A stretch of DNA of 64,000 bases from Kribbella pratensis (GTDB taxonomy: Bacteria > Actinomycetota > Actinomycetes > Propionibacteriales > Kribbellaceae): contig NZ_SODU01000003.1 of NCBI RefSeq assembly GCF_004366075.1, positions 1,178,001 through 1,242,000 of the forward strand, given 5' to 3'. Made by a program: the position numbers and the translations under genes. Shown one piece after another: positions 1 through 16,714 of this stretch. Position 1 is the first letter of the stretch. Every line of letters begins with the position of its first letter. The notes under the pieces were generated by a model that had not been told where the DNA came from, ran no database searches, and worked only from the letters and a program-made list of their open reading frames with translations.

Positions 1-1346
1 CGCGACAACACGCTGTAGATACTCAGCAGCGCGTTGAAGACCGCCAGATCCGCCGAGTACGCCGGATCCGCCCGCCGGAGCAGATCGTTCTCGATGAGTT
101 CGGTGAGGAACCGTTCGAACCCGTCCCGATCCTCGAAGAACCGCCCGGCCAACGGCCGGTCCACCTCGTGCCGGACGAACCAGTCGGCAGGGTCCGGAAC
201 ACCGGCACGAACGGCGGCTTCGAACTCCGCATCCGCCACCGCCCCGGATCCCGCATCGCGCCCCGGGACGGCGTTGAGGCTCGCGCCGGGCAACCAGGCG
301 TCGAGCGTTTCGGCGAACCGCTTCCACGGCCACCTGGTCCTTTCGGGATGCGCTGTGAACAGCTGCTGGTAATGCGCGTAGGCCAGTTCTTTCTCGATCA
401 ACGGCGCCACGTCGCGGTCGAAGTCGAGAACGCCTTCGCCAAGCGCCTTCTTCGTCAGGTAGCGCGTCGGGACCGGCCTCGTTCCCGGGACGGTGTAGCC
501 GAGCTTCGAGTGGTACGGGACGCCGCGGCGCGAACCGACGTACAGGATCGGTTCGTCGCCGGACGGGTGGTAGCTGAGCAGGCCGTCGGACTCGTCGTAC
601 CAGCCGCCGCGGCCCTCGGTGAGCAGCACCATCAGGTCGACGAAGGCCTGCCCGAATCCGCGGACGATGACCGGTGCCTGCGGCCACAGCCCGTCCAGGT
701 CGACATCGGCGGTGTACCCCGGCGGGATGTAGGTGAGTCCGGCGTCGGCGGCCTGTGCGGCCCATGCGGATTCCGATGCCGTGGGCAACCGGTCCAGGTA
801 GCCGAGCGCGAGAACCACCGCGTCGGCCGCGATCTCCCGTCCGGACCCGAGGATCACCCGCTGGTCCGCAGTGAGCTCGACGGCTCGCTCCCGATGGGTG
901 ACGACGGTCGCGGGGAGATCGCGGACGACGCGCTCCCACACCCACGCCAGGTACTCCGCCTGCACCAGACGCGGTGGGAAGGCAAGAGGGCCGGGAGGTT
1001 CGAGCCCGGCCTTCTCGAGGATCACCGCGCCCTCGCCGGCGACCCAGGTGGCGAGGTCCGGCCCCGGCACGATCGGGCCCTCGCAGTCGACCGACTCGTC
1101 GGTGAAGATAGTGACGTCGGACGTCATCGAGTTCATCCACAGCAGCCGCGACTGATCGCGCCGCCAGATCCGCCCGCCTCCGGCCGGAAACGGATCCACC
1201 ACGTGAATCTCGACGCGGCGGCCACCGAGCAACTCGTCGGCACTGGCCGCGAACCGCTCCAGCAACCCGACCGTCCGCGGGCCACCACCCACGAACACCA
1301 CAGTCGCCGGCGCCTCCTTCCACGGATGCAGATCGGACACGGTCAT
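1..1346 (-). CDS. FAD/NAD(P)-binding oxidoreductase, 3' end outside window
   Basis: At least 448 codons are present and the C-terminus lies beyond position 1. The N-terminus has a dinucleotide-binding fold with a VVFVGGGPRT turn near residue 17, which fits the FAD-NAD(P)-binding family (PF13454 type) seen in large putative flavin monooxygenases. A second strand, IHVVDPFPAGGG, follows at about residue 45 as expected for the adenosine-ribose binding acidic residue. The ATG at 1346 overlaps the stop of the upstream monooxygenase gene as ATGA, so it is translationally coupled and is the last gene visible in the sulfur-type operon. It probably supplies an oxidation step on the same imported compound, or reduced flavin. 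The substrate cannot be read from the sequence. Confidence 0.75.
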   Translation of the reverse strand, partial: MTVSDLHPWKEAPATVVFVGGGPRTVGLLERFAASADELLGGRRVEIHVVDPFPAGGGRIWRRDQSRLLWMNSMTSDVTIFTDESVDCEGPIVPGPDLATWVAGEGAVILEKAGLEPPGPLAFPPRLVQAEYLAWVWERVVRDLPATVVTHRERAVELTADQRVILGSGREIAADAVVLALGYLDRLPTASESAWAAQAADAGLTYIPPGYTADVDLDGLWPQAPVIVRGFGQAFVDLMVLLTEGRGGWYDESDGLLSYHPSGDEPILYVGSRRGVPYHSKLGYTVPGTRPVPTRYLTKKALGEGVLDFDRDVAPLIEKELAYAHYQQLFTAHPERTRWPWKRFAETLDAWLPGASLNAVPGRDAGSGAVADAEFEAAVRAGVPDPADWFVRHEVDRPLAGRFFEDRDGFERFLTELIENDLLRRADPAYSADLAVFNALLSIYSVLS

Positions 1347-2659
1347 AGCTGCAGTCCTAGGTGGTCGCGGAGGGTTGTGCCGGTGTATTCCGGGCGGAAG
1401 ACGCCGCGTTCGCGGAGCAGGGGGACGACTCGGTCGACGAAGTCGTCGAGGCCGGACGGGGTGAGGTGCGGAACGAGTACGAAACCGTCGGCGGCGTTTT
1501 CCTGGACGTGCCGGTTGACGGCTTCCGCGACCGAGGTGGGTGAACCGACGAACGTCTGCCGGTTCTGCTGGTTGATGACGGTCTGCCGCAGCGACCAGCC
1601 GTGCGCCTCCGCCTGCGCCCGCCACTCGGAAACGATCGGAAACGGATCGTTGTACCCGACCCGCCCCTGCGTCACCGACGACCCGACGACCGGGTCCTCG
1701 GCCGGCAGCGGACCGTCCGGGTCGTAGGCCGAGAGATCGCGGCCCCAGAGCAGTTCGGCCAACACCAACGCGGTCGGACCGGAAACCTGCTGCTCCCGGA
1801 TGTACGCCGCTTTCTCGATCGCGTCGGCGTCCGTGTCCGCGACCACGACCGTCACCGCGGGCATGATCTTCAGCGACTCGTCGGTCCGCCCGTACTTCGC
1901 CAGCCGCGCCTTCACGTCCTTGTAGAAGGTCTGCCCGCCCTCGAACGTCCCGTGCCGGCTGAAGATCACGTCCGCGCTCGACGCCGCGAACTCGCGCCCC
2001 TCGTCGCTGTCACCGGCCTGGATGATCACCGGCCGGCCCTGCGGCGACGGCGGCAGACCGAACCGCCCGCGGATGGTGAAGTGCGCGCCGTCGTCCGCGA
2101 AGGCCCCAGCGCCTTCGCGGGCGAACGCACCCGCCGCCTGGTCCAGGACGAGGTCGTCCCCGTTCCAGGAGTCCCAGAGTTTCCGCACGATCCGGAGCGA
2201 TTCCTGCGCGCGGACGTACCGGTCGCCCTTGTCGAGGTACCCGCCGCGGCGGAAGTTCTCGCCGGTGAACGCGTCCCACGACGTCACGACGTTCCAGGCC
2301 GCGCGGCCGTTGGAGACGTGGTCGAGGGTCGAGAGTCGTTTCGCCAGTTCGTACGGCTCGTTGAAGGTCGAGTTGACGGTCGCGGCCAGGCCGAGGTGTG
2401 TCGTGACCGCCGCCAGCGCGCTGAGCACGGTCAGCGACTCGGGCCGCCCGACGACATCCAGGTCGTGGATCCTTCCCTTCACCTCACGCAGCCGCAGCCC
2501 CTCGGCCAGGAAGAAGAAGTCGAAGGTCCCACGTTCCGCAGTTTCCGCAAGTTGCCGGAACGATCCGAAATCGATCTGCGACCCGGACGCGGGGTCCGAC
2601 CAGACGGTCGTGTTGTTCACGCCCGGAAAGTGCGCGGCAAGATGGATCTGCTTGGTCAT
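1343..2659 (-). CDS. NtaA/SnaA/DszA-type FMN-dependent monooxygenase
   Basis: This 438-residue luciferase-like protein has the length and pattern of the NtaA/SnaA/DszA family, two-component monooxygenases that use FMNH2 from a separate reductase. Diagnostic stretches are the N-terminal HLAAHFPG strand, the FFFLAEGL strand near residue 49, the STLDHVSNGRAAWNVVTSWD segment near residue 110 and SPQGRPVIIQAGDSDEGREF near residue 207. A good ribosome binding site (GAGGAG) precedes the ATG, which overlaps the preceding gene by ATGA. In family members the reaction is cleavage of a C-N or C-S bond. The operon's sulfur-type leader peptide favours an organosulfur substrate such as an S-alkylated cysteine derivative. 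That is inference from context, not from active-site residues. Confidence 0.88.
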   Translation of the reverse strand: MTKQIHLAAHFPGVNNTTVWSDPASGSQIDFGSFRQLAETAERGTFDFFFLAEGLRLREVKGRIHDLDVVGRPESLTVLSALAAVTTHLGLAATVNSTFNEPYELAKRLSTLDHVSNGRAAWNVVTSWDAFTGENFRRGGYLDKGDRYVRAQESLRIVRKLWDSWNGDDLVLDQAAGAFAREGAGAFADDGAHFTIRGRFGLPPSPQGRPVIIQAGDSDEGREFAASSADVIFSRHGTFEGGQTFYKDVKARLAKYGRTDESLKIMPAVTVVVADTDADAIEKAAYIREQQVSGPTALVLAELLWGRDLSAYDPDGPLPAEDPVVGSSVTQGRVGYNDPFPIVSEWRAQAEAHGWSLRQTVINQQNRQTFVGSPTSVAEAVNRHVQENAADGFVLVPHLTPSGLDDFVDRVVPLLRERGVFRPEYTGTTLRDHLGLQL

Positions 2660-3735
2660 CGCACACTCCTCGCGTACCTGTTCACCGGCCGCCGCAACCC
2701 GAGCCGCCCGCGCAAACTCCCGCCCCGCTGTCCGGACCCGGCCAGGCCGCGTTCCCGCAGCACCGGCAGCAACTGCTCCGCGATCAACGGCACATCGAGC
2801 TCGAGCGACGCGGGCCGAAGCTGTACGCCGTCAACGCCCACCGCCGCCCATTCCTCTATCGACGAGGCGAGCCGCTCGACACCGTCGACGTGCGGCCGAA
2901 CCTCGGCAGACACGAGAACCAGCGGGCCGACCACCTGGTCCGACGTCAAAGTCACACTCGGACCGGCGAGCGTCACACTGCGACGAGCGTTTTCCCGCAG
3001 CTCCAGCACCTGATCCGACAGGACGCCGGAATCCGGCAGGAAGACGAGTTCCGCATCAGCGGCCGCCTCCAGCGCCTCCGGCGTACTGACCCGGATCGCG
3101 GTGATCGGGTGTCCCTGTGGCGGCCGCGGGACGATCGACGGGCCTTTGACACTGAACGTCGGCGACTCGAAGTCGACGTAGTGCAGCTTCTCCCGGTCGA
3201 CGAATCGCCCGGTGGCAGCGTCGCGGATGATCGCGTCGTCCTCCCACGAGTCCCACAGGCGACGCCCGGCGTCGACGACGTACCGCGCCTCCCTCCACGT
3301 CTCGGCAGCCGGCGCCGGCTCGCGCCGCCCGATCACCGCGGCCGCCTCGGCCGACGTCGAGACCTCAGCGATCCAGCCGGCCCGACCACCCGAGATGTGG
3401 TCAAGCGTCGCGACCGAGGCCTGCACATGGAACGGCTCCGTGTGAGTGACGGTGATCGTCGGCAGCAACCCGATCCGTTGTGTCACCGGCGCGACCCGCG
3501 CGGCCAGCCCGAGCGCATCCAGCCGGACACTCACCCGATCGGGTACGTCGTCCGGCGCCTCGAGCGCATCCACGAACGTCGCGAGGTCGACCCCCGCCGC
3601 CTCCGCCCGCTGCGCTGCCCGTACGGCGAGCTCACCGGTCAGAATCGCCCGCGGATCGACCTCCGGACCACGCCACGCCCCGGGATCCCCACCCGCGCCA
3701 TCGATCTCGATCGCCGTGATGAACCCGTGGCTCAT
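2656..3735 (-). CDS. LLM class flavin-dependent oxidoreductase
   Basis: A 359-residue luciferase-like monooxygenase from a different branch from its neighbour. It shows the TIM-barrel N-terminal strand FITAIEIDGAG, the HTEPFHVQASVATLDHISGGRAGW run typical of the family near residue 96, and RRLWDSWEDDAIIRD, a phrase also found in the NtaA-type neighbour. I place the start at the ATG at 3735, which overlaps the upstream reductase-acetyltransferase gene by ATGA; further upstream the frame is a shadow. The C-terminal tail after about residue 335 is arginine-rich and not family-like. Like its neighbour it needs FMNH2, which the gene immediately upstream can supply. Two distinct monooxygenases in one operon suggest either sequential oxidations or a two-subunit enzyme. 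Confidence 0.82.
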   Translation of the reverse strand: MSHGFITAIEIDGAGGDPGAWRGPEVDPRAILTGELAVRAAQRAEAAGVDLATFVDALEAPDDVPDRVSVRLDALGLAARVAPVTQRIGLLPTITVTHTEPFHVQASVATLDHISGGRAGWIAEVSTSAEAAAVIGRREPAPAAETWREARYVVDAGRRLWDSWEDDAIIRDAATGRFVDREKLHYVDFESPTFSVKGPSIVPRPPQGHPITAIRVSTPEALEAAADAELVFLPDSGVLSDQVLELRENARRSVTLAGPSVTLTSDQVVGPLVLVSAEVRPHVDGVERLASSIEEWAAVGVDGVQLRPASLELDVPLIAEQLLPVLRERGLAGSGQRGGSLRGRLGLRRPVNRYARSVR

Positions 3736-4787
3736 GACGCCACCTTCAATGCCACAGGGAGGTCCTTGCTGAACGGCAGCGGACCGATCGACTCGGGATC
3801 GGCCTCGGTGTCGAACTGCGGCTCGAATCCGACCGACAGATACAACCCGGCCGCCTCCGGCTGCCGCGGCCCCGTCGTCAGATACAGCCGCCGGTACCCG
3901 AGATCGAGCGCCGCCGACTCCAGCTCCGCGAGCACACGACGACCCAAGCCCTGCCGGCGATGCAGGTGCGACGTCCACATCCGCTTCACCTCGGCGGTCT
4001 CGTCGTCGTACCGACGGATCGCGCCCCCGGCAACCGTCTGCCCGCCGTACCGCAGCAGCACGAACGCGCCGCCGCGCTCGACGTGAAAGTCCGACGGCGG
4101 TACTTCGGTCAGCTGCGTGTTCTCGTTCGTACGCCCGTACCGCGTGCTGTACTCGACGACCAGATCCGCCAGCAACGGCGCCGCCTCGGGATCCTCCGGC
4201 CGCGCCCGGATCGCCTCCACCGCGGCGATCTGCACCGGCGTACTCTCCACCGGCTGCTCGCCCTCGACGGTCGCGAGGAACGCCTCCGTCACCTGATACA
4301 GCGGCACCGATGCCACCGGATCGAGCAGCAGCCCGCCGCCGTCGTACAGCTGGACGTGCGACGACAGTACGAACCACCCCTGCCCGATCGCACCCGCGCC
4401 GAGGCTGGTGAGCACCGGTCGGAGCGCGTAGTCGATCACCAGCACATGCGCCGGCGTACCGCCCGTTGCCAACGGCAACACCGTCTTGCCCTTCAACGCG
4501 TACTGCGGCAGCAGATCCAGGAACACCTTCAGCAAACCGGAGTACGCCGCCTTGTAGACCGGGGTCGTGACCACGACCGCATCCGCGTTCTCGAGCACCG
4601 AAGCCGCTGCGGAAATCGCTGGATCGTCGGCCTGACCGCGCAACAACGGCTCGGCCGGAAGATCGCGCAAGACGATCGGCGTGACGGTGTGGCCGTGGCT
4701 GATCAGGCGCTTGGTGACATAGTCGAGAACCGCGTCGGTCCGCGACGGGACCGATGGGCTGCTGGAGATCGTTGCAATGGTCGCCAT
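3732..4787 (-). CDS. SsuE-type FMN reductase fused to GNAT acetyltransferase
   Basis: A 351-residue two-domain protein. Residues 1-180 are an NADPH-dependent FMN reductase of the SsuE/flavodoxin-like type, with the TPVYKAAYSG flavin loop at 75-84 and the LPLATGG strand near 104. A linker follows, and residues 205-345 form a GNAT domain with the acetyl-CoA loop RRQGLG at 267-272 and the family's AAGLYLSVGFEP end. The reductase half should feed FMNH2 to the two monooxygenases encoded just downstream. The acetyltransferase half may N-acetylate the imported amine before oxidation, as SnaA (YtmI) does in Bacillus. The ribosome binding site AGGAG is formed over the stop codon of the preceding gene. 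The fusion itself argues that acetylation and flavin-dependent cleavage act on one pathway. Confidence 0.9.
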   Translation of the reverse strand: MATIATISSSPSVPSRTDAVLDYVTKRLISHGHTVTPIVLRDLPAEPLLRGQADDPAISAAASVLENADAVVVTTPVYKAAYSGLLKVFLDLLPQYALKGKTVLPLATGGTPAHVLVIDYALRPVLTSLGAGAIGQGWFVLSSHVQLYDGGGLLLDPVASVPLYQVTEAFLATVEGEQPVESTPVQIAAVEAIRARPEDPEAAPLLADLVVEYSTRYGRTNENTQLTEVPPSDFHVERGGAFVLLRYGGQTVAGGAIRRYDDETAEVKRMWTSHLHRRQGLGRRVLAELESAALDLGYRRLYLTTGPRQPEAAGLYLSVGFEPQFDTEADPESIGPLPFSKDLPVALKVAS

Positions 4788-4796
4788 TGAGTTCTC

Positions 4797-5750
4797 CTAT
4801 TTCTTCGGCAGACCGGGCGGGTTGATCAAGGACTTCGGGACGGCCTCGGCCTGCAGGCCCCACTTGGCCAGCACCTTCGCGTAACTGCCGTCCGCGATCG
4901 CCGCGTTCAGCGCGTCCGCGAGCGGCTTGACGAGCCCGTTGTCCTTCTTCGTCGTGATTCCGACCAGACCCTGCACGGGATAACTGGACGAGACGGTGCC
5001 GACGATCTCGGTCTTGTGCTGGGTCGCGACGTGGTACGACGCGTTCGGGTTCGGGCCGAGGTACAGGTCGATCCGGCCGGACTGCAGCGCGAGGTAGGTG
5101 TCCGCGGCCTGCTGGTAGTACTTGAGGTTCGCGGGTTTCCGGCCGGCCGCGACGTTCTGCTTGTTCCAGTCGACCAGGATCGCTTCCTGAAGCGTTCCGG
5201 AACCGACCGCGACGTTCTTTCCGGAGATGTCCGCCGGGCCGGTGATCTTCAGCCCCGAGCCGACCTTCGCCTCGAACGCGTGCAGCCCGAGCCGGTACGT
5301 CGCGAAGTCGTACTTCTCCTTGCGCAGTTCGGAAACTCCGATGTTCGAGATTCCGACCTGGTATTTCCCGGAGTCCAGCCCGAGGAACAGGTTCTCCCAG
5401 CTCGTCGTGTCGATCTGGGCCTGCAGCCCGAGGACGCTCGCGACCAGGTGGGCGACGTCGATCTCGACCCCGATCGGGGTCTTGTTGTCGTCGGCCGTGA
5501 ACCCGAGCGGCGGCAGTCCGCCACCGGCCGAGCCGTTCCCGACCACCAGTTTCCCGGACTCCCGCACCGAGGCCGGCAACTCGGCCGCGATGCTGTCCAC
5601 CTTCGCCGAGGTGATGTGCTGCTGGTTCGCCGAGGTGTCGAACGAAACCACCGAGGGATCACTGCTCTTGGCGGACTCCGCCTGCGGATCGGCACACGCG
5701 GCCGCCGCCAGCAGAACTACCCCGAGCACCAAGCTCCAACGTTTTCTCAT
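4797..5750 (-). CDS. Amino-acid-type ABC transporter substrate-binding lipoprotein (second copy)
   Basis: This 317-residue protein starts with a lipoprotein signal whose lipobox is LLAAAAC, so it should be anchored to the outer face of the membrane. The rest is a family 3 solute-binding protein with GVEIDVAHLVASVLGL near residue 95, TSWENLFLGLDSGKYQVG near residue 120 and the KYDFATYR phrase near residue 150. It is homologous along its whole length to the product of the gene directly upstream, so the two arose by tandem duplication. Divergence in the ligand region (LGLHAFEAK here, KDDIAFEAK in the other) suggests they recognise different but related ligands. Bacillus TcyJ and TcyK are a comparable pair serving one cystine-type transporter. 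Confidence 0.92.
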   Translation of the reverse strand: MRKRWSLVLGVVLLAAAACADPQAESAKSSDPSVVSFDTSANQQHITSAKVDSIAAELPASVRESGKLVVGNGSAGGGLPPLGFTADDNKTPIGVEIDVAHLVASVLGLQAQIDTTSWENLFLGLDSGKYQVGISNIGVSELRKEKYDFATYRLGLHAFEAKVGSGLKITGPADISGKNVAVGSGTLQEAILVDWNKQNVAAGRKPANLKYYQQAADTYLALQSGRIDLYLGPNPNASYHVATQHKTEIVGTVSSSYPVQGLVGITTKKDNGLVKPLADALNAAIADGSYAKVLAKWGLQAEAVPKSLINPPGLPKK

Positions 5751-5759
5751 CTGTTGTCC

Positions 5760-6692
5760 TCAGCTCGTCAGGGGAAGGCCGGGCGGGTTGATCTCGGACT
5801 TGGCGACCGCCTCGGTCGACACGTTCCAGCGGTCCAGGACCTTCGCGTAGCTGCCGTCCGCGATCACGCCGTCGATCGCCGTCTGGTAGGCCTTCACCAG
5901 GCCGCTGTCCTTCTTGGTGGTGGCCGCGATCAGGCCCTGCAGCGTCGGCCCGGCGCCGGAAAATTTGCCGATCGTCTCTGTCTCGCCGGACGTCTTCACG
6001 TGGTAGGCGATCGACGGGTTCGGCCCGAGGTATCCGTCGATCCGGCCGGAGCTCAGCGCCAGATACGTGTCGGTGTTCTTCTGGAAATACTTGATCGTTG
6101 CCGCCGGCAACCCGGCTTTGACGTTCGCCTCGTTCCAGTCGACCAGGATCTTCTCCTGGTTCGTCCCCGAGCCGACCGCAATCGTTTTCCCGGCGATGTC
6201 CTTCGCACCGGTGACTCGCCAGGTCCCGCCCTTCTTCGCCTCGAACGCGATGTCGTCCTTGCGGTACGTCGCGAAGTCGTACTTCTGCTTGCGCTTCTCC
6301 GTCACGGTGATGTTCGAGAAGCCCACGTCGTACTTGGCCGAGTCGAGGCCGACGAAGAGGTTCTCCCAGCTGGTCACCTCGATCTTCGGCTGCAGCCCGA
6401 GCGCCTGGGCGACCAGGTAGGCGATGTCCACCTCCAGCCCGATCGGCGTCTTGTTGTCGTCGGCGTAGAAGCCGAGCGGCACGCTGCCGCTGCCGAAGCC
6501 GGCGCCGACGACCAACGTGCCGCGGTCGCGGACCTTGGCCGGCAGTAACGCGGCAGCGGCGTCGTTGCGAGTGGTGGTCACCCGGTTCTGCTCGGCGGAG
6601 GTGTTGACCCCGGTATCCGAGGCAGCTGTGGCATCAGCGCCACAGCCGGCCAGCGTGAGCAGCGCAAGGGAGAGGACAAGAAGTCGTTTCAT
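5760..6692 (-). CDS. Amino-acid-type ABC transporter substrate-binding lipoprotein (first copy)
   Basis: Family 3 solute-binding lipoprotein of 310 residues with lipobox LTLAGC. Key phrases are GLEVDIAYLVAQALGL, TSWENLFVGLDSAKYDVG and KYDFATYRKDDIAFEAKKG, all matched by its paralogue downstream. I choose the ATG at 6692, whose A is shared with the stop codon of the ATPase gene, because AAGG lies seven bases upstream. A GTG three bases earlier is the alternative. The gene lies between the ATPase and the second binding-protein gene, only nine bases from the latter, so both are made from the same transcript. The family binds amino acids or small polar molecules. A sulfur amino acid is likely from the leader peptide, but unproven. 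Confidence 0.92.
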   Translation of the reverse strand: MKRLLVLSLALLTLAGCGADATAASDTGVNTSAEQNRVTTTRNDAAAALLPAKVRDRGTLVVGAGFGSGSVPLGFYADDNKTPIGLEVDIAYLVAQALGLQPKIEVTSWENLFVGLDSAKYDVGFSNITVTEKRKQKYDFATYRKDDIAFEAKKGGTWRVTGAKDIAGKTIAVGSGTNQEKILVDWNEANVKAGLPAATIKYFQKNTDTYLALSSGRIDGYLGPNPSIAYHVKTSGETETIGKFSGAGPTLQGLIAATTKKDSGLVKAYQTAIDGVIADGSYAKVLDRWNVSTEAVAKSEINPPGLPLTS

Positions 6693-7444
6693 CACAGCAC
6701 CTTCGAGATGAACGCACGGGTGCGCTCGTGGACGGGGTTGTCGAGCACTTCGCGCGGTGGACCCGATTCGACGATCCGGCCGCCATCGATGAAGACCACC
6801 GTGTCCGCGATCTCCCGGGCGAAGCCGATCTCGTGGGTGACGACGACCATCGTGGAGCCATCGCGCGCGAGCTCCTTGATCACGTCGAGGACCTCGCCGA
6901 CGAGCTCCGGGTCCAGCGCGCTGGTCGGCTCGTCGAACAGCAGGACCTTCGGTTTCAGCGCCAGCGCGCGAGCGATCGCGACACGTTGCTGCTGACCGCC
7001 CGACAGCTGCCGCGGGTAGGCGTCGGCCTTCTCACCGACGCCGACGCGCTCCAGCAGCTCGCGCGCGAACGGCTCGACCTCGCTGCGCTTGCGGCGCTGC
7101 GCGGACACCGGCGCCTCGACGACGTTCTGCAGCGCAGTGAGATGCCCGAAAAGGTTGAAGTTCTGGAACACGAACCCGACCTGCGACCGCTGCCGCAGGA
7201 TGTCGCGCTCCCGCAGCTCGTGCAGCTTGTCGCCGCGGCGTCGGTACCCGATCAGCTCGCCGTCGATCCGGATCAGCCCGCGATCCACCTTCTCCAGATG
7301 GTTGATCGACCGCAGCAGCGTCGACTTCCCCGATCCGGACGGGCCGAGGATCACGGTGACGGCGCCGGCCTGGACCTCAAGGTCGATCCCCTTCAGTACT
7401 TCGAGGTCGCCGAAGTTCTTGTGCACACCCTTCACGTCGATCAT
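6692..7444 (-). CDS. Polar amino acid ABC transporter ATP-binding protein
   Basis: A 250-residue ATPase of the GlnQ/HisP type. Walker A GPSGSGK is at 34-40, the Q-loop lies in VGFVFQNFNLFGHLTAL, the signature is LSGGQQQR, Walker B is VLLFDEPTSALD and the switch histidine sits in VVVTHEIGF. The start ATG at 7444 overlaps the permease stop as ATGA. Together with the single permease and the two lipoproteins it forms a complete importer. One permease gene implies a permease homodimer, unlike the TcyL/TcyM heterodimer in Bacillus. Confidence 0.95.
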   Translation of the reverse strand: MIDVKGVHKNFGDLEVLKGIDLEVQAGAVTVILGPSGSGKSTLLRSINHLEKVDRGLIRIDGELIGYRRRGDKLHELRERDILRQRSQVGFVFQNFNLFGHLTALQNVVEAPVSAQRRKRSEVEPFARELLERVGVGEKADAYPRQLSGGQQQRVAIARALALKPKVLLFDEPTSALDPELVGEVLDVIKELARDGSTMVVVTHEIGFAREIADTVVFIDGGRIVESGPPREVLDNPVHERTRAFISKVL

Positions 7445-8334
7445 CGCGTCGTACCTCGCGCGAAGCGGCGTTCCACGTAGTACTGCACGATCGACAGCAG
7501 TGTGGTCAGGACGATGTACCAGACCGTGGCGACCATCAGCAGCGGTACGACGCGGCTGTTCCGGCCGTAGATCACCTGCACCTGGTAGAAGAGCTCCGGG
7601 ATCGCCATCACCGAGACGATCGAGGTGCCCTTGAACAGGCTGATCACCTCGTTCGCGCCGTTCGGCAGGATCGAGCGCATCGCCTGCGGCAGCACGATCC
7701 GGAAGAACTGCCGCCGTTTCGGAATCCCCAGTGCGGCGGCGGCTTCGGTCTGGCCGGCGTCGACGGAAATGATTCCACCCCGGATGATTTCCGCGGCGTA
7801 CGCCGCCTGATGCAGAGCCAGCCCCAGTACGGCGGCGCCGAGCGGACCGAACAGGTTGTTCGTACTGAAGTGCACGAACTCCGGGCCGAACGGGATGCCC
7901 AGGCTGAGCTCCTGGTAGAGGTAGGCGATGTTGAACCAGAACAGCAGCTGCACGATCAACGGGATCGAGCGGAACGCCCAGATGTAGCCCCAGGCAACTA
8001 CTTGCAGGAACGGGCTGCCGGACAGCCGCATCGACGCGAGGACGGCGCCGAGCACGAACCCGAGCACCGTGCCGTACACCGTCAGCTGCACGGTCACCCA
8101 GAGCGCCGAGAAGACGGTCCTGGTGGCGAAGAACTGGAAGAACGTCGGCCAGTCCCAGCCCGGATTCGTGGCCAGTCCGTGCACGAACATCGCGAGCAGG
8201 ACGAGGACGACCCCGACGCCGACCCAGCGCCACGGATGTCGCCGGGCGACGACGGTCAGATCGGCTTCGAGCGGTACTGCGGTCGCCGGCGGTCCGGTCG
8301 TACCGGACGCAGACGTGACTGAAGTGGTGGACAC
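7441..8334 (-). CDS. Polar amino acid ABC transporter permease
   Basis: A 297-residue HisM/GlnP-type permease. After a roughly 35-residue cytoplasmic start it shows a first membrane segment (VGVGVVLVLLAMFVHGLA), a long periplasmic loop, and the family's core from FSALWVTVQLTVYGTVLGFV onward. The EAA motif that docks the ATPase is EAAAALGIPKRRQFFRIVLP. The start is GTG at 8334 with AGGGAG seven bases upstream. It is the first structural gene after the leader peptide and lies 113 bases from the leader's stop, leaving room for an attenuating structure. Confidence 0.93.
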   Translation of the reverse strand: MSTTSVTSASGTTGPPATAVPLEADLTVVARRHPWRWVGVGVVLVLLAMFVHGLATNPGWDWPTFFQFFATRTVFSALWVTVQLTVYGTVLGFVLGAVLASMRLSGSPFLQVVAWGYIWAFRSIPLIVQLLFWFNIAYLYQELSLGIPFGPEFVHFSTNNLFGPLGAAVLGLALHQAAYAAEIIRGGIISVDAGQTEAAAALGIPKRRQFFRIVLPQAMRSILPNGANEVISLFKGTSIVSVMAIPELFYQVQVIYGRNSRVVPLLMVATVWYIVLTTLLSIVQYYVERRFARGTTR

Positions 8335-8402
8335 GATGACACTCCCTGGCGGTGGGCAGGCTTCGCGGGCCCTGCGACGGCGGAGGGCGGCAGCGGGCAG
8401 CA

Positions 8403-8422
8403 GGCGTCCTGAACCGGACGCC
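8403..8422 (-). promoter_or_regulatory. Hairpin between leader peptide and permease gene
   Basis: The transcript can form a perfect seven-base-pair stem (GGCGTCC with GGACGCC) around a six-base loop, 25 bases after the leader's stop codon and 68 bases before the permease start. No run of U follows, so it is not a standard intrinsic terminator. It may act with leader translation to control readthrough or ribosome access. That mechanism is inference. Confidence 0.5.
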
Positions 8423-8447
8423 TTGACAGGACGTGAGGAGACTCAGG

Positions 8448-8522
8448 TCAGCGCAGACAGAGGGCGCTGGAGACCCGGAGGAGATCGATGTGGAGGCGGT
8501 AGTACGGCGGCTTGCGCGTCAT
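8448..8522 (-). CDS. Sulfur-type regulatory leader peptide (24 aa)
   Basis: This 24-codon gene reads MTRKPPYYRLHIDLLR followed by VSSALCLR and stop. The HIDLLRVSSALC pattern is that of short actinobacterial leader peptides found ahead of sulfur assimilation, cysteine and sulfonate genes. The single cysteine codon near the end is the likely sensing point: when cysteinyl-tRNA is scarce, a ribosome stalled there would change folding or access downstream. AGGAG stands six bases before the ATG. Upstream on the same strand is an AT-rich stretch suited to a promoter. It is the best evidence that the whole operon from 8334 down to 1 is expressed for sulfur nutrition. Confidence 0.85.
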   Translation of the reverse strand: MTRKPPYYRLHIDLLRVSSALCLR

Positions 8523-8859: not shown

Positions 8860-9780
8860 GTGCCCACTCACCAAGACGCGCCGCAAACAGAGCGGCAGGC
8901 GTCCAGCCGCCCGGCTGCTCCGCGCCGGGTGGCAAAGCACCGCTCCTCCCGCCGCAACGCGACCCGCCGTACCCAGCTGATCGGCCTGACCGCCGCCTTG
9001 GCCGCCGCGGCCGGGACCACGACCGTCGGGCTCAGCTCGTCCGCGACCGGTCCGGCCACCGCATCCGGAAGCACCGGCCTGAGCCCCTCACAGGCCGACG
9101 CTCTGACTGCCGCCCGGGTCGACCGGCGCGACCTCGGGTCCCGGGACGCGTCCCGGATCGACCTGTCGCTCGCGTCGACCCGGAAGGCGGCGGCCGAGAC
9201 CGCCGCGAAGCAGCGGGCCGCACGCCTGGCCGCGCACGCGGCACTGACGCAGCGCCGGGCGCTTGCGCTGGCAGCCGCGAAGGCAGCCGCCGCGAAGAAG
9301 GCCGAGGCGAACGCCAAGGCCCTCGCCGCCGCGAAGAAGGAAGCCCTCGCCAAGGCAGCGGCGATCAAGGCGGCCGCGACCCCGAAGATCGTGCTGCCGA
9401 CCACCGGCTACCACCTGACCGCCCGCTTCAACCAGGCCGGCGGCCGCTGGGCCCACAACCACACCGGTCTCGACTTCGCGGCCCCGATGGGTACGCCGGT
9501 CCGCTCGGTGATGGCCGGTGAGGTCATCCAGGCCGACTTCGAAGGCGCGTACGGCCGTCAGGTGAAAGTGCGGCACGCCGACGGCACCGTCACGTCGTAC
9601 AGCCACATGTCCGAGTTCGACGTCTCCGTCGGCGACTCGGTCGAGGCAGGCACGATGGTCGGCCGCATCGGCATGACCGGCAACACCACCGGCCCCCACG
9701 TCCACTTCGAGGTCCTCCCCCACGGCGGCGACCCCATCGACCCCGAACCCTGGCTCCGCGACCACGGCCTCACCCCGTAA
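8860..9780 (+). CDS. M23 family murein peptidase
   Basis: A 306-residue exported protein. I take the GTG at 8860 as the start because GGAAGG stands just upstream; an ATG at 8788 in frame has no such site. A basic N-terminus leads into a membrane or signal segment (LIGLTAALAAAAGTTTVGL). Residues from about 110 to 190 are an alanine- and lysine-rich helix likely to form a coiled coil or cell-wall stalk. The C-terminal domain is an LytM-type zinc peptidase with metal ligands in HNHTGLDFAAP and the HVHFE motif. It should cut peptidoglycan cross-bridges outside the cell. The stop is five bases from the end of the facing acetyltransferase gene. Confidence 0.9.
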   Translation: MPTHQDAPQTERQASSRPAAPRRVAKHRSSRRNATRRTQLIGLTAALAAAAGTTTVGLSSSATGPATASGSTGLSPSQADALTAARVDRRDLGSRDASRIDLSLASTRKAAAETAAKQRAARLAAHAALTQRRALALAAAKAAAAKKAEANAKALAAAKKEALAKAAAIKAAATPKIVLPTTGYHLTARFNQAGGRWAHNHTGLDFAAPMGTPVRSVMAGEVIQADFEGAYGRQVKVRHADGTVTSYSHMSEFDVSVGDSVEAGTMVGRIGMTGNTTGPHVHFEVLPHGGDPIDPEPWLRDHGLTP

Positions 9781-9785
9781 GACCC

Positions 9786-10295
9786 CTACAAGGTCTTGGC
9801 CATGTCGAGGGCGGCTATGTAGGTGCCCTCGATGAGGAATTCGTTGGGGTGGGTGCCTTCCAGGACGTAGCCGTGGCGTTCGTACAGGCGGCGGGCGGCG
9901 GTGTTGGTGCTGTGGACGTGCAGGCTGATCTTGCGCGCGCCGCGGCGGCGCCCCTCGGCGGTGGCGGCGTCCAGGAGGGCGGACGCGACGCCCAGGCGGC
10001 GCGCCTCGTGGGCGACCGCGAGGCCGTTGATCGACAGTACGCCGGAACCCTCGGGGAACGGGTACTTGTCCTGCAGGCGCAAGTACCCGACCACGGCGCC
10101 CTCGTGCTCCGCGACCAGATGCGCCTCCGGCCCGCTCCGGCTGAAGAACGTGTCCTGCAGCGTGTCCTGGTAGGACGGGAATCCCGACGACGCGTCCCAC
10201 GCACTCCGCTCGATCGCGAGCAGCGCCGTGTCGTCCTCCTCGACGGCACGTCGTACCGTCACCTGCTGGTCGCCTGATCGGCGGTCGTCACTCAC
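9786..10295 (-). CDS. GNAT family N-acetyltransferase
   Basis: A 169-residue acetyltransferase of the GNAT fold. The substrate-facing strand YLRLQDKY, the motif A segment INGLAVAHEARRLGVASALL with acetyl-CoA loop RRLGVA, and the terminal TAARRLYERHGYV helix-strand are all present. I place the start at GTG 10295, which has GAGGA eight bases upstream; an ATG at 10325 would add ten residues. It stands alone between two cell-wall peptidase genes, facing the first. The acceptor molecule cannot be told from the sequence. Confidence 0.82.
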   Translation of the reverse strand: MSDDRRSGDQQVTVRRAVEEDDTALLAIERSAWDASSGFPSYQDTLQDTFFSRSGPEAHLVAEHEGAVVGYLRLQDKYPFPEGSGVLSINGLAVAHEARRLGVASALLDAATAEGRRRGARKISLHVHSTNTAARRLYERHGYVLEGTHPNEFLIEGTYIAALDMAKTL

Positions 10296-10350
10296 CGCAC
10301 CATCCTCGCCCGCCGGGTGGGCCAACTGCCTGCGGGGTCAGGTTCCGGGA

Positions 10351-10371
10351 CCGATATCGAAAACATATCGG
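10351..10371. promoter_or_regulatory. Inverted repeat upstream of M15 peptidase gene
   Basis: CCGATAT and ATATCGG form perfect seven-base arms around a seven-base AT-rich centre, 45 bases before the ATG of the carboxypeptidase gene. Its position and symmetry fit a dimeric repressor or activator site. No regulator is encoded beside it. Confidence 0.35.
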
Positions 10372-10416
10372 AAATCGCAGACGCTGCCGCAACATCGCCT
10401 TGGATGAACTGTCGGC

Positions 10417-11073
10417 ATGCTGACCAATCACCTGAGGCGCGATCGTCGGCTCGCCGGATCCGGCCGTCTGGCGATCGTTGCCGCCGTCATCAGTCTCGCG
10501 CTGACCTCGTGTACAGCGGTTTCCGCGCAGGACGATTCGTCACCGTCGAGTACCGGGTCGAACACGGGGTCGAGCACGGGGTCGAGCACCGGGTCGACCT
10601 CCGGCCGGCCGTCGAAGTCCGGCTCGACCAAGAGCGGACCGCCCGGCGCGGCGGACGGCGTCCTGCCCGACCACACCTCGGCGTACGACACCAGCCTGCC
10701 CGGGGTCACCAAGCTCGATCCCGCCCTCCGTGAGGCCGTCCAGGAGGCCGAGACCGCGATGAAGGCGGACGGCATCAGGATGCAGGTCACGACGGGCTGG
10801 CGCAGCAAGAAGTACCAGGAAGAGCTGATGGAGAAGGCGATCCGCAAGTACGGCAGCAAGAAGAAGGCCAAGGAGTACGTCGCCGACCCGGACGAATCGC
10901 ACCACGTCACCGGCCACGCCGTCGACATCGGCCCCACCGACGCCGACTACTGGCTGATCCGCCACGGCAACCGCTACGGCCTCTGCCAAACCCTCTCCAA
11001 CGAGATCTGGCACTTCGAGCTGGTCACCACTCCGGGCGGGACCTGCCCACCCATGACCGACCCGAAGGGCTAG
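10417..11073 (+). CDS. VanY-type D-Ala-D-Ala carboxypeptidase lipoprotein
   Basis: A 218-residue M15B peptidase. A lipoprotein signal with box LALTSC near residue 32 anchors it outside the membrane. A low-complexity linker of Ser, Thr and Gly (residues 40-75) follows. The catalytic domain carries the zinc motif in SHHVTGHAVDIG, corresponding to the family's SxHxxGxAxD, and the second ligand in IWHFE. It is expected to remove the terminal D-alanine from peptidoglycan stems. Family members can lower glycopeptide susceptibility, but with no vanHAX-like genes nearby a cell-wall maintenance role is more likely. Confidence 0.9.
   Translation: MLTNHLRRDRRLAGSGRLAIVAAVISLALTSCTAVSAQDDSSPSSTGSNTGSSTGSSTGSTSGRPSKSGSTKSGPPGAADGVLPDHTSAYDTSLPGVTKLDPALREAVQEAETAMKADGIRMQVTTGWRSKKYQEELMEKAIRKYGSKKKAKEYVADPDESHHVTGHAVDIGPTDADYWLIRHGNRYGLCQTLSNEIWHFELVTTPGGTCPPMTDPKG
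10547..10594 (+). repeat. Four 12-bp tandem repeats in lipoprotein linker
   Basis: Four near-identical 12-base units (consensus CGAGCACGGGGT) lie in frame in the carboxypeptidase linker and encode Ser/Thr-Gly-Ser tetrapeptides. Being a multiple of three, gain or loss of copies would lengthen or shorten the stalk without a frameshift. Confidence 0.8.
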
Positions 11074-11591
11074 CGGGGTTCTTCGGGGGGATCGGGGAGT
11101 TTGGCGAGGGGGCGCTGGGACCAGGCGACGTCATGCCAGGCGTCGAGTTTCCAGCCGATTTCGCGATAGGTGCCGATCGGGTCGAAGCCGAGGGACTTGT
11201 GCAGGGCCTCGCTGGCCGGGTTGGGCAGCGTGACACCGGCGACGGCGGTGCGGAAACCGCGTTCTGACAGGCGCTCGAACAGGGCGTTGTAGAGCGTTCG
11301 GCCGGCGCCGGTGCGGTGGTGGCTGGGGGCAACATAAACGCTGACCTCACAGGACCAGCGGTACGCCGGGCGCGGCTTCATCGGGCCGCCGTACGCATAT
11401 CCGACGACCTGGCCGTCGTCTTCGAGAACCAGCCACGCGTGGGTGGACTGGGCCTTGGCAATCCGCTCGGCCATCTCCTCGACCGTCGGCGGATCGAGCT
11501 CGAACGTGATCGACGTACCGGTGACGTAGGGCGCGTAGATCGCCGCGCAGGCCTCGGCGTCGGCAGCCGAGGCGTCTCTGACCTGAACCAT
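11070..11591 (-). CDS. Phosphinothricin-type GNAT acetyltransferase
   Basis: A 173-residue GNAT protein close in pattern to the Pat/Bar and YncA group. Typical stretches are VRDASAADAEACAAIYAPYV at the start, TSITFELDPPTVEEM, the EVSVYVAPSHHRTGAGRTLY strand and acetyl-CoA loop, and LHKSLGFDPIGTYREIGWK near the end. Family enzymes acetylate the amino group of phosphinothricin, methionine sulfoximine or similar compounds; the native substrate here is unknown. The start is ATG at 11591. Its 3' end overlaps the facing carboxypeptidase gene by four bases. It diverges from the XRE-cupin gene, with only about 40 bases between starts. Confidence 0.88.
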   Translation of the reverse strand: MVQVRDASAADAEACAAIYAPYVTGTSITFELDPPTVEEMAERIAKAQSTHAWLVLEDDGQVVGYAYGGPMKPRPAYRWSCEVSVYVAPSHHRTGAGRTLYNALFERLSERGFRTAVAGVTLPNPASEALHKSLGFDPIGTYREIGWKLDAWHDVAWSQRPLAKLPDPPEEPR

Positions 11592-11603
11592 GACACGATA
11601 GTA

Positions 11604-11626
11604 GCCACAACTGCCGCTATAGTGGC
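11604..11626. promoter_or_regulatory. Shared divergent promoter with inverted repeat
   Basis: GCCAC at 11604-11608 and GTGGC at 11622-11626 form an inverted repeat between two divergent starts. TATAGT at 11618-11623 fits a -10 element for the rightward gene. Only seven bases separate it from the GTG at 11631, so that gene's mRNA is probably leaderless. The symmetry suggests a site for the XRE regulator itself. Confidence 0.45.
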
Positions 11627-11633
11627 AAGCGTG

Positions 11634-12194
11634 ATGGATGAACTGTCTCGGTCCTTGGCCGCGACCGTGCAGCAGGCGCGGGTCGCGCAGGACCTGTCCG
11701 TGAACGCGCTCGCCGAGCGGTCGGGGGTTTCGCGCGCGATGATCGGGAAGATCGAGCGGGGCGAGGCGCAGCCCACCGCCGTACTGCTGGGGAAGCTGTC
11801 CGGTGCGCTCGGCATGACATTGTCCGAGCTCGTCGCCCGCGCGGAGAACACCGGTGAGCTGCTCCGTCGAGCACACGACCAGCCGGTCTGGACCGACCCG
11901 GTCACCGGGTACCGCCGACGCGCGGTGTCCCCGGTGACCGATGGGCCATTGGAACTGGTGGAGGTGGAACTGCCTCCCGGGGCGTCGGTCTCGTACCCGG
12001 CCGACGCCTACATCTTCAAGTACCAGCAGTTGTGGATCCTCGACGGACGGCTGCGCTTTCACGAAGGATCACAGGTTCACGAACTACATGCCGGCGACTG
12101 CCTGCAACTCGGCCCACCTCTGCCGACGACCTTCCACAATCCGGGTACGGCGGTGTGCCGTTACCTGGTCGCGCTGGTCAAGGGGCGCGGCTGA
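11634..12194 (+). CDS. XRE family regulator with C-terminal cupin
   Basis: A 186-residue DNA-binding protein. Residues 5-62 are a Cro/C1-type helix-turn-helix (LSVNALAERSGVSRAMIGKIERG). Residues 110-180 form a small cupin barrel (ELVEVELPPGASVSYPADAY, then LRFHEGSQVHELHAGDCLQL). HTH-cupin proteins usually sense a small molecule through the cupin and control adjacent catabolic or resistance genes, so the divergent acetyltransferase gene is the probable target. The start may be the ATG at 11634 or the GTG at 11631; both fit a leaderless message. Its last 34 bases overlap the end of the facing monooxygenase gene. Confidence 0.88.
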   Translation: MDELSRSLAATVQQARVAQDLSVNALAERSGVSRAMIGKIERGEAQPTAVLLGKLSGALGMTLSELVARAENTGELLRRAHDQPVWTDPVTGYRRRAVSPVTDGPLELVEVELPPGASVSYPADAYIFKYQQLWILDGRLRFHEGSQVHELHAGDCLQLGPPLPTTFHNPGTAVCRYLVALVKGRG

Positions 12195-13672
12195 AACCAC
12201 TGCGCCACCGCGTCACGCAGCCCTTCACGTTCCGCGACGCCGTCCTGCTCGGCGGCCCAGGCGACGTAGCCGTCCGGCCTGATCAGCACGGCGATCGGAG
12301 CCTCGCCCCGACCGGTGACCACCTCGATCGGATCCGCCACGAGGTCGGCGAACGAGGCATCGGGGGTGAGGTCGACGAGGAGCGGGCGAGCCGACCTCAT
12401 CAGCTCGGCCAGCCGCTTGGAGCCGATCGTCAGATCGGGCGCCCAGCGGCCGACGAGGGGGTGCGAACCCTCGTGGTACTTGATGTCCGCGCCGGAAATC
12501 AGTTCCGCAACTCGCTGCACGTTTCGCGGATCGGTCAGAAACTCGCCGAACAGTTTCCGCAACGCCGTCACCTGCTCACCTGGTGCGATCAGCGCGGACT
12601 GTGCCTGCGTGTGCATCACGACCCGCTCCCCCACCGGCCGACGCTCGGACTCGTACGTGTCGAGCAGCCCCGGCGGCGCCCAGCCCTGCACCTCCGCCGC
12701 CAGTTTCCACCCGAGGTTGACCGCATCCTGCAACCCGAGGTTCAGCCCCGGACCGCCGATCGCGGAGTGCACGTGCGCGGCGTCGCCGACCAGTAACACC
12801 CGTCCGGAACGGAAACTCGACGCCAGCCGGCTGTTCCCGCCGACCACGCGCCGGAGCTGCCGAACACCCTCACCCGTTGGCTCGACCAACGGCAGGTGAA
12901 CGCCGAGCACCCGATCGGCGCTCTCCTGCAACTCCTGGAAAGTCACCTCACCCTCCGGCGGCGTGTCCCACTCTCCCGTGCTGATCGCGGGCAGCCGATT
13001 CGGAAACGGCGCCCAGACGAACAGGCCACGTTCAGTCCGCTGGTGCAGGAACGGCGGCACTACGCCGTACCCAGGGACCTTCAGCAGCCCGTTCTCGATG
13101 TACTCGGGCGGCACCGCAGCGCTTCCGGTCCGGGACACCATCGAGTCGTTGGTGACGCCAGGAAAGTCGATTCCGGCGAATTTCCGTGTCGGGCTGTGGC
13201 CGCCGTCGGCGCCGACCAGATAGCCGGCCCGCAGTTCGTACTCGCCATCCGGTCCGGATAGCGACACGGTGACGCCGTCCGCGTCCTGTGTGAACCCGGT
13301 CAGCTCGTGACCACGCCGGATCTCGACGCCGAGTTCCAGGGCTCGCTCCTGCAGAACCTCCTCGATGCGCACCTGAGGAACCTGCAGCAGATAGACCGGG
13401 TTCTCCTCGAGTACGTCGAGCGGCAACGGCATCGCGCCGAACACGAATCCAGGAGCCGGCTGCGGCGGACCCGGCGTACCGCTCAAGCGCTCGTAGAGTC
13501 CGCGCCGGTCGAGCATTCTGATGACCTGGCCGACCAGGCCGTTGGCACGCGGTACCGTGCTGCGTTCCGGGAGTTTCTCCAGCACGATCGGCCGGACTCC
13601 GGCCAGCATGAGTTCACTGGCGAGCATGAGGCCGTTCGGTCCGGCTCCGGCGATGACAACTTCTGCGTCCAT
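12161..13672 (-). CDS. FAD-dependent aromatic monooxygenase
   Basis: A 503-residue class A flavoprotein monooxygenase (PF01494 type). The N-terminal FAD fold is EVVIAGAGPNGLMLASEL, the DG motif is YLVGADGGHSPTRK near residue 165, and the second FAD motif is GRVLLVGDAAHVHSAIGGPG near residue 290. The C-terminal thioredoxin-like tail is present, giving the length of the rifampicin or anthracycline hydroxylase branch. It probably hydroxylates an aromatic or polyketide compound, for degradation or detoxification. It follows a TetR gene on the same strand, 64 bases downstream, which suggests ligand-induced control. SD GGAGGGG stands four bases before the ATG. Confidence 0.9.
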   Translation of the reverse strand: MDAEVVIAGAGPNGLMLASELMLAGVRPIVLEKLPERSTVPRANGLVGQVIRMLDRRGLYERLSGTPGPPQPAPGFVFGAMPLPLDVLEENPVYLLQVPQVRIEEVLQERALELGVEIRRGHELTGFTQDADGVTVSLSGPDGEYELRAGYLVGADGGHSPTRKFAGIDFPGVTNDSMVSRTGSAAVPPEYIENGLLKVPGYGVVPPFLHQRTERGLFVWAPFPNRLPAISTGEWDTPPEGEVTFQELQESADRVLGVHLPLVEPTGEGVRQLRRVVGGNSRLASSFRSGRVLLVGDAAHVHSAIGGPGLNLGLQDAVNLGWKLAAEVQGWAPPGLLDTYESERRPVGERVVMHTQAQSALIAPGEQVTALRKLFGEFLTDPRNVQRVAELISGADIKYHEGSHPLVGRWAPDLTIGSKRLAELMRSARPLLVDLTPDASFADLVADPIEVVTGRGEAPIAVLIRPDGYVAWAAEQDGVAEREGLRDAVAQWFQPRPLTSATR

Positions 13673-13702
13673 AATTCCCCTCCACTTGGGCGTGACTGAC
13701 CG

Positions 13703-13721
13703 CCCCGGCGACTCACCGGGG
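13703..13721 (-). terminator. Hairpin between tetR and monooxygenase gene
   Basis: CCCCGG and CCGGGG form a six-base-pair stem around CGACTCA, between the stop of the TetR gene and the start of the monooxygenase gene. On the minus strand no U-run follows; the pyrimidine-rich flank is on the other side. It may partly uncouple the two genes. Weak call. Confidence 0.3.
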
Positions 13722-13736
13722 TCTGTTCTAGGGCTG

Positions 13737-14345: not shown

Positions 14346-14364
14346 GCCTCGACCGTAACAGAAC

Positions 14365-14396
14365 TTGCCCAAAGAGCAAAGATGCCTTTTAGGCAA
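14365..14396. promoter_or_regulatory. Candidate TetR operator
   Basis: TTGCC at 14365-14369 and GGCAA at 14392-14396 bracket the region, and a perfect palindrome, TGCCTTTTAGGCA, lies at 14383-14395. It sits about 20-50 bases before the TetR start in the divergent gap to terC, where a TetR dimer or dimer pair would block the promoter. Confidence 0.5.
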
Positions 14397-14441
14397 TTTC
14401 CTCCGACTTGCTGAGACCACGAGCAGGCCATGGTTGGGTAA

Positions 14442-16712: not shown

Positions 16713-16714
16713 CG

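Follow-up and report, generated by a model that had tools for sequence, protein, structure and literature searches.

The DNA analysed here (the window) is a stretch of 64,000 nucleotides from Kribbella pratensis (contig NZ_SODU01000003.1, positions 1,178,001 to 1,242,000; G000:C3:1178001-1242000 in the host genome), whose left end carries an operon that we studied together with the fetched left flank (L028). Eleven minus-strand genes follow a short leader open reading frame (ORF) and constitute one operon, the 3' end of which lies 3.5 kb left of window position 1, the window edge thus cutting through it. What sets it apart is that an FzmM-like flavin monooxygenase is linked with an amino-acid-type importer behind a cysteine-type leader. 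The parts that fall in the window are the following:

8448 to 8522, minus strand: leader peptide ORF, 24 aa with a single Cys codon near the end (NF042934 at 30.7 bits, cut-off 27; translation verified)
8403 to 8422, minus strand: stem-loop of 7 bp between the leader and the first gene (GGCGTCC-GGTTCA-GGACGCC), with no U-tract seen
7441 to 8334, minus strand: permease of a PAAT-type ATP-binding cassette (ABC) importer (PF00528; best NCBIfam match the cystine permease, 141 bits, cut-off 300)
6692 to 7444, minus strand: PAAT-type ABC ATPase, TcyN-like (best NCBIfam match TcyN, 315 bits, cut-off 406; ATG start at 7444)
5760 to 6695, minus strand: binding lipoprotein 1, family 3 (PF00497; alternative ATG start possible at 6692)
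4797 to 5750, minus strand: binding lipoprotein 2, family 3 (PF00497; same residue pattern as lipoprotein 1)
3732 to 4787, minus strand: SsuE-type flavin mononucleotide (FMN) reductase fused to a GNAT domain (TIGR03567, 190.7 bits, cut-off 164; PF00583, 51 bits, cut-off 20.7)
2656 to 3735, minus strand: luciferase-like monooxygenase (LLM) B, short and NtaA-like (PF00296; TIGR03860 at 190 bits, below the cut-off of 279.7; ATG start at 3735)
1343 to 2659, minus strand: LLM A, of the NtaA/DmoA family and CmoJ-like (TIGR03860 at 401 bits, above the cut-off)
1 to 1346, continuing for 591 nt left of the window, minus strand: FzmM-like class B flavin monooxygenase, 645 aa in all (PF13454; 280 bits to structure 8cp2)

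Past the PF13454 gene, leftward, the operon goes on with an SsuD-like LLM (366 aa), a DUF1684 protein (258 aa; L028 9547-10323) and a CE1758-like LLM (347 aa). Its ten junctions comprise five ATGA overlaps, one 1-nt TGATG overlap, one 11-nt overlap and three gaps of 7-9 nt. The original prediction, made from the letters of the window, had described a single minus-strand operon with a leader, an importer with two lipoproteins, the fusion protein, two LLMs and an FAD/NAD(P) protein in a GC-rich actinobacterium; all of these parts are present and the host is indeed of that kind, the fusion protein being closest to those of Kribbella sp. VKM Ac-2569 (99%) and K. soli (98%), but the statement that the genes are linked mostly by ATGA overlaps was slightly overstated.

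For comparison, we used 80 loci selected because they encode a relative of the fusion protein (80 retained of 93 found in one scan of genome contigs), in which gene presence was scored by identity thresholds that we set ourselves. Importer ATPase and binding protein occur together in 43 of them, namely 14 Kribbella-type, 24 other actinobacterial and five Aureimonas/Sphingomonas loci, and the remaining 37, K. antiqua (L060) included, fall outside this importer group. In the K. antiqua locus (9762-17543), SsuE-GNAT lies downstream of the leader, and the locus gave no match to an importer gene. The synteny comparison among Kribbella genomes that had been proposed as a check came out in favour of the operon: most of these genes, together with the leader, are found again in Kribbella-type loci, and the arrangement is therefore not a matter of chance. 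The operon is real and conserved.

We then focused on the PF13454 protein, which existing records label merely as 'FAD/NAD(P)-binding protein'. The original prediction had listed it under such a name and was right about its presence, but missed its FzmM-like identity and with it the most distinctive part of the operon. When phmmer was run against solved structures, a single strong match was returned (8cp2/8cp5, 280 bits), and identity between FzmM and the protein encoded in the window amounts to 37%. Moreover, a structure model of the ortholog from L058 (19 sequences, mean pLDDT 85.4, pTM 0.84) was aligned with 8cp2, that is FzmM, at Z 35.8, with an rmsd of 3.2 over 576 residues and 37% identity, the next entry reaching Z 16.4; Foldseek gave a concordant result. 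Full-length homology to the FzmM/CreE aspartate N-hydroxylases is hence confirmed by both sequence and model. An initial identification of 8cp2 as an ergothioneine-degrading enzyme was rejected, as the structure search shows that it is FzmM.

The FzmM report (PMC10404684) names Arg13, Arg276, Asn413, Arg416 and Arg577 as aspartate-binding residues, describes a sulfate held by Arg266, Arg409, Arg412, Asn413 and Arg416, and gives Asn62 as critical for catalysis in related monooxygenases. These positions were surveyed in 26 FzmM-like proteins: 19 of alignment A1 (39 loci had a PF13454 match, of which 19 were used), the window's own, and six from fetched loci. Asn62 and Arg577 are kept in 26/26 and Arg13 in 20/26. 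In the ungapped 409-416 block, Arg409 is replaced by Leu and Arg412, Asn413 and Arg416 are lost, in every one of the 26. Arg266 is likewise Lys throughout and Arg276 is lost throughout, although both border an alignment gap and are less certain, Arg276 being aligned to Tyr in one alignment and mostly to Pro in another. Two control relatives of FzmM, from S. camelliae (beside a pcaB-annotated gene) and Parageobacillus (58% and 51% identical to FzmM, respectively), keep all tested residues. The aspartate-binding cluster, taken as the mark of FzmM/CreE function, is thus missing from the whole set, and its loss, together with retention of the catalytic Asn62, argues, by this test, for a substrate different from aspartate; the FzmM-like proteins form a coherent subfamily that has kept the class B flavin machinery. 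On the Parageobacillus plasmid (L164 5989-10237), the FzmM-type enzyme with intact aspartate-binding residues adjoins nitronate monooxygenase and MFS genes and is flanked by transposase genes.

The same sequences are compatible with oxygenation at either sulfur or nitrogen. Oxygenation at sulfur is favoured, because class B monooxygenases frequently oxygenate sulfur and all LLMs of the operon stay below the cut-off of the MsnO8 family (TIGR03558; best score 82 bits against 167), to which the sulfoxidase CmoO presumably belongs. The other possibility is that an imported beta-thio amino acid is oxidised by the FzmM-like enzyme at its alpha-amino group, as far as a nitroso or nitro compound. The alpha-proton, thereby acidified, would permit beta-elimination of the sulfur group, and the GNAT would be an accessory. 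The closest solved relative is, after all, described as a multi-step N-hydroxylase of aspartate in PMC10404684, the catalytic Asn62 is retained, and of six loci that have no GNAT, five have the enzyme next to the importer. However, among the operon proteins scanned we found no nitrosuccinate-lyase-type gene, as opposed to the pcaB-annotated lyase-family neighbour of the FzmM-type relative in S. camelliae; N-acetylation would block such a route wherever a GNAT occurs, and the binding proteins (see below) hint at a ligand without a free ammonium group. We consider this explanation improbable. Overall, the Kribbella-type enzyme resembles FzmM/CreE in full-length fold and sequence and in keeping Asn62 and Arg577, but differs from them in having lost the aspartate cluster and in lying in a sulfur operon in which no lyase gene was seen.

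Concerning the FMN-dependent enzymes, LLM A matched the solved structures of YtnJ (260 bits), 3sdo (257) and BdsA (237) in a near tie, judged by bit scores only, and is best described as CmoJ-like, which falls short of proving it a CmoJ; for comparison, the Aureimonas LLM scores 514 bits against YtnJ and is clearly CmoJ-type. The SsuD-like LLM matches MsuD at 184 bits. This match, that of LLM A to BdsA, the SsuE-type reductase, and a further leader-linked locus of the host in which a binding protein scores above the SsuA-family cut-off would suit an operon for scavenging sulfonates, sulfones or sulfonate esters, in which the LLMs act as SsuD, DszA or SfnG and release sulfite, and the importer takes up sulfonated amino acids. 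Nevertheless, the importer is of the amino-acid and not of the SsuABC type, and neither the GNAT nor the FzmM-like enzyme would have a role. MsuD binds the sulfonate through Arg225 and Arg296, as stated in PMC8234197, and a single pairwise alignment places Ala228 and Gly301 of the SsuD-like protein at these positions, which makes plain sulfonates less likely as substrates. Sulfonate scavenging is therefore, in our view, distinctly unlikely. The DUF1684 protein gave weak matches to solved structures, all of them uncharacterised (32 bits). It was observed to co-occur with these LLM genes in Kribbella, in Geodermatophilus relatives and in several further genomes.

The leader peptide (sequence MTRKPPYYRLHIDLLRVSSALCLR, ORF 8522-8448) scores above the cut-off of the curated model NF042934 ('putative leader peptide') and has sulfur genes downstream. 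A scan of the whole host genome at E up to 10 returned 19 matches; as in the other genome searches, part of the first-look candidates were scored, here 150 of 376. The five best (E <0.005) lie in short frames of 29-45 aa, two of them above the model's cut-off and three below it; the remaining 14 start at E 0.09 and lie in frames >140 aa, except one of 100 aa. All five precede sulfur genes. One belongs to the operon studied here; the others stand ahead of a sulfite/nitrite-reductase-type gene with cysH, cysD and cysN, ahead of the importer whose binding protein exceeds the SsuA-family cut-off, ahead of a set (L029 2890-7422; G000:C2:642889-647421) comprising an HpaC/RutF-type flavin reductase, an SsuA-like binding protein (below cut-off), an ATPase and an NtaA-family LLM that is 36-38% identical to LLM A, and ahead of a 148-aa protein (no NCBIfam match) followed by a 3-mercaptopyruvate-sulfurtransferase-like gene (below cut-off). 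No match above the cut-off was found in any of 14 control genomes. In addition, a regular expression for the leader, written with the studied leader already known and counted wherever it matched in a locus, was found in 15/15 Kribbella-type loci, in 19/24 other actinobacterial importer loci, in 0/5 proteobacterial loci, and in 4/36 importer-less loci outside Kribbella. In three loci from Geodermatophilus and Blastococcus (L097, L098, L130), a plus-strand leader is accompanied by a second leader just upstream of a divergent PF13454 gene. The sulfur-type leader of the original prediction was thereby borne out, and the operon is very probably under sulfur control.

How the leader would act is suggested by related systems. 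According to PMC1262725, the leaders that precede mycobacterial cys operons contain Cys runs and lack terminators, and a review (PMC9031893) presents short ORFs with contiguous Cys codons in M. smegmatis as cysteine-responsive attenuators. The Kribbella leader resembles these actinobacterial Cys-rich leaders in its NF042934 match and its position ahead of sulfur genes, but differs in holding one Cys codon and no Cys run, and it is for this reason by analogy only that we infer a cysteine-responsive element. In an alignment of 14 loci, each of the seven pairs of the stem-loop at 8403 to 8422 is conserved in 12 to 14 of them, and one pair only shows two-sided changes; RNAalifold on the 14 leader regions gave a covariation term near nil, with both-sided changes in 1 of 23 pairs. 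At Rfam gathering thresholds the whole window returned tRNA-Tyr only, and no riboswitch match.

The importer is of the PAAT amino-acid type by both Pfam and NCBIfam, as had been claimed from the letters. Both its ATPase and its permease fall short of the cystine equivalogs (scores listed above), which places them in the same superfamily but not in the same equivalog. In PAAT binding proteins such as GlnH and HisJ, an Arg binds the alpha-carboxylate and an Asp the ammonium group of the ligand. We aligned 83 binding proteins, the two lipoproteins of the operon plus 81 homologous ORFs, some of them overlong or frameshifted. The carboxylate Arg is present in 83/83, both own lipoproteins included. 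At the ammonium position there are 67 Pro (both own lipoproteins among them), 15 Thr and one truncated sequence, and Asp in none of the 82 readable ones; four relatives encoded elsewhere in the host genome have Asp (two) or Pro (one) there, one being unaligned. The absence of this Asp hints that the ligand lacks a free alpha-amino group, so that the alpha-nitrogen of the imported compound may be blocked. Among the solved relatives of the binding proteins are opine and deoxyfructosyl-amino-acid binders, and YtmK (2o1m), which is the comparator of choice here, was also matched.

The nitrogen might be blocked already on arrival, the ligand being an N-acetyl-S-conjugate (mercapturate) or a betaine, e.g., ergothioneine, with the GNAT serving for re-acetylation or another branch. 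Actinobacteria export mercapturates derived from mycothiol conjugates. The residue pattern, the Asp in two of four own-genome relatives, the opine-type binders among solved relatives and the optional nature of the GNAT (see below) all suit this explanation. On the other hand, the role of the Asp is carried over from GlnH and HisJ, one own-genome relative also has Pro and one is unaligned, and the identical Asp-less pattern is found in clusters bearing an M20 gene, where the GNAT implies free amines. We regard arrival in blocked form as unlikely.

The distribution of genes around the importer bears on which steps are constant. An FzmM-like gene is present in 15/15 Kribbella-type loci, in 20/24 other actinobacterial importer loci and in 0/5 M20-bearing loci. 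In a class sample of 246 genomes, the importer ATPase (E up to 1e-110) was found at 15 places; nine of these lie no more than 10 kb from a PF13454 relative (E up to 1e-100), and five have a GNAT (E up to 1e-20). Thirteen further loci were fetched by place, picked non-randomly among the matches; ten hold a PF13454 relative, and four of those ten (L155, L157, L158, L159) a GNAT. In five genomes of one other genus (L150-L154), the PF13454 gene lies beside the importer genes and no GNAT was seen. As five of the six GNAT-less loci retain both, the FzmM-like enzyme tracks the importer more closely than the GNAT does, and acetylation as a fixed step, implied by the original prediction, does not hold for the six of ten loci that have a PF13454 relative and no GNAT. 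In L156 (8529-16949), a PF13454 relative, an SsuD-like LLM, a class V aminotransferase, a GST-C protein, LLM B and LLM A form one run, in which neither importer nor GNAT was matched.

A deacetylase had been suggested as possibly lying beyond position 1. No M20 gene was found among ten minus-strand ORFs scanned in the 12-kb left flank (the completed PF13454 gene included; the flank was scanned in part), among the operon proteins scanned, or in the thirteen fetched loci, and that suggestion is not upheld. The host genome encodes three M20 homologues at other loci, 34-36% identical to the M20 protein of the proteobacterial clusters. In those clusters (5/5 Aureimonas/Sphingomonas loci) an M20-type gene lies between an NtaA-type LLM and the GNAT, two of the proteins having been scanned and matching PF01546; a search with one of them recovered these five and none of the other 75 loci. 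The importer ATPase is 66-69% and the GNAT 45-53% identical to the Aureimonas/Sphingomonas counterparts, and the GNAT is 51% identical to that of the R. etli cluster. The importer-GNAT module is therefore shared with proteobacteria, the independent assembly first proposed is not supported for it, and it is the oxygenase set that differs.

By annotation, the gene order on R. etli p42c and on a Mesorhizobium plasmid is LLM-LLM-M20-GNAT-importer-two binding proteins-LLM, and a Pantoea plasmid has an MsnO8-LLM, an amidohydrolase, an LLM, a binding protein, a GNAT, a permease, an ATPase and a binding protein. These rhizobial and Pantoea clusters (L147, L149, L163) share with the Kribbella operon a homologous GNAT, an importer with two binding proteins, and LLMs, but differ in having an M20 aminoacylase (L147, L149) or an amidohydrolase (L163) and an annotated MsnO8-family LLM (L149, L163), and no FAD/NAD(P)-binding protein is annotated in them. 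Clusters of this GNAT/importer/M20/LLM kind resemble the known S-alkylcysteine logic, which PMC10863075 gives as acetylation, sulfoxidation by CmoO, cleavage by CmoJ and deacetylation.

The B. subtilis ytmI/ytn operon contains CmoO, CmoJ, a GNAT, the M20 protein YtnL and a Tcy importer. The Kribbella operon is like it in the amino-acid-type importer, the GNAT, an NtaA-family LLM matching YtnJ (CmoJ) best, and sulfur regulation. It is unlike it in that neither an M20 gene nor an LLM at the MsnO8 cut-off was found, SsuE is fused to the GNAT, a Cys leader stands in front, and the FzmM-like enzyme, the SsuD-like LLM, LLM B, the CE1758-like LLM and the DUF1684 protein are added. Similarly, the scm (yxe) cluster of B. 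subtilis shares a GNAT, an LLM and a binding-protein importer but includes its own N-acetylcysteine deacetylase, ScmP (PMC12757645 and PMC9706529). The ytmI-like salvage proposed in the original prediction is a reasonable reading, given that the GNAT/importer module adjoins LLMs and M20 genes elsewhere, but its suggested substrate, S-(2-succino)cysteine, is not favoured: this compound is assigned to scm (yxe), and S-methyl- and S-benzylcysteine to ytn and yha, in PMC12757645. The same source describes three redundant N-acetylcysteine deacetylases in B. subtilis, and as Kribbella has three M20 homologues, deacetylation by an enzyme encoded elsewhere in the genome is plausible.

The fusion protein itself (E up to 1e-40) was found in 24 of 38 genomes of the genus, host included, and the same search in other genomes of the order gave one match in 59, limited to residues 38-134 of the reductase part. 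On the S. clavuligerus megaplasmid, ssuE and GNAT are separate neighbours, the latter 58% identical to the Kribbella one, so that the fusion looks like a Kribbella feature. In this plasmid-borne relative of the operon (pSCL4, L148 8995-16017), the annotation further lists a 'putative leader peptide', three LLM genes and a protein with a GST-C domain, and shows no importer gene nearby. In one of the 24 Kribbella genomes (G026), two TGA stops lie inside the fusion gene and the match is limited to residues 1-300, and the K. catacumbae locus gave no match to an NtaA-type LLM (loci L072 and L056); operon decay is possible in these two cases.

Altogether, we see about an even chance that this is a sulfur-amino-acid scavenging operon, induced by cysteine shortage, that couples oxygenation by the FzmM-like enzyme to C-S cleavage by LLMs. 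The compounds would most likely be S-modified cysteines (thioethers that remain when conjugates are degraded) or N-acetyl derivatives of these. When cysteine is scarce, the leader would be translated slowly, and this would allow expression of the operon; the PAAT importer would take the compound up, and its amino group would be acetylated where a GNAT is present. The FzmM-like enzyme would then oxygenate the substrate, most simply on sulfur, in the place perhaps held by an MsnO8-family LLM in some proteobacterial clusters, if the steps indeed follow this order. The SsuE domain would supply FMNH2 to the LLMs, which would cut the C-S bond, and any deacetylation would fall to a general M20 enzyme encoded elsewhere.

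Several observations weigh against this scavenging route. The chemistry described for the FzmM family is on nitrogen, the FzmM-like gene is missing from 4/24 other actinobacterial importer loci, and the GNAT from 6/10 fetched loci that have it. Absence of the ammonium Asp from all 82 readable binding proteins fits poorly with intracellular acetylation as the first step, and the host's M20 homologues are only 34-36% identical to the cluster enzyme. Moreover, three of the five best leader matches fall under the cut-off, and below-cut-off matches also occur in 10 of the 14 control genomes; the scores of LLM A against 3sdo and BdsA come near to that against YtnJ, and the case for S-oxygenation leans on the CmoO-MsnO8 link that we presume. 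In addition, the proposed route does not account for the DUF1684 protein and LLM B.

A more specific proposal, which we advance tentatively and hold to be rather more doubtful than the scavenging route, is that a member of the aspartate N-hydroxylase family has been recruited to sulfur nutrition, its rebuilt aspartate chamber now oxygenating imported sulfur amino acids, on N or S, for breakage of the C-S bond. If so, actinobacteria would have an organic-sulfur route, operating whether a GNAT is present or not, that differs from the sequence of acetylation, oxidation, cleavage and deacetylation used by Bacillus and proteobacteria. A literature search that left most subscription papers outside its reach found no account of this gene set, and actinobacterial use of S-substituted amino acids as a sulfur source seems little described. 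If the scavenging route is correct, it would represent a cysteine-controlled system present in Kribbella, Streptomyces, Kitasatospora and Geodermatophilus relatives. It would also give FzmM-like flavoenzymes a new role, in which case homology to FzmM need not imply nitrosuccinate production.

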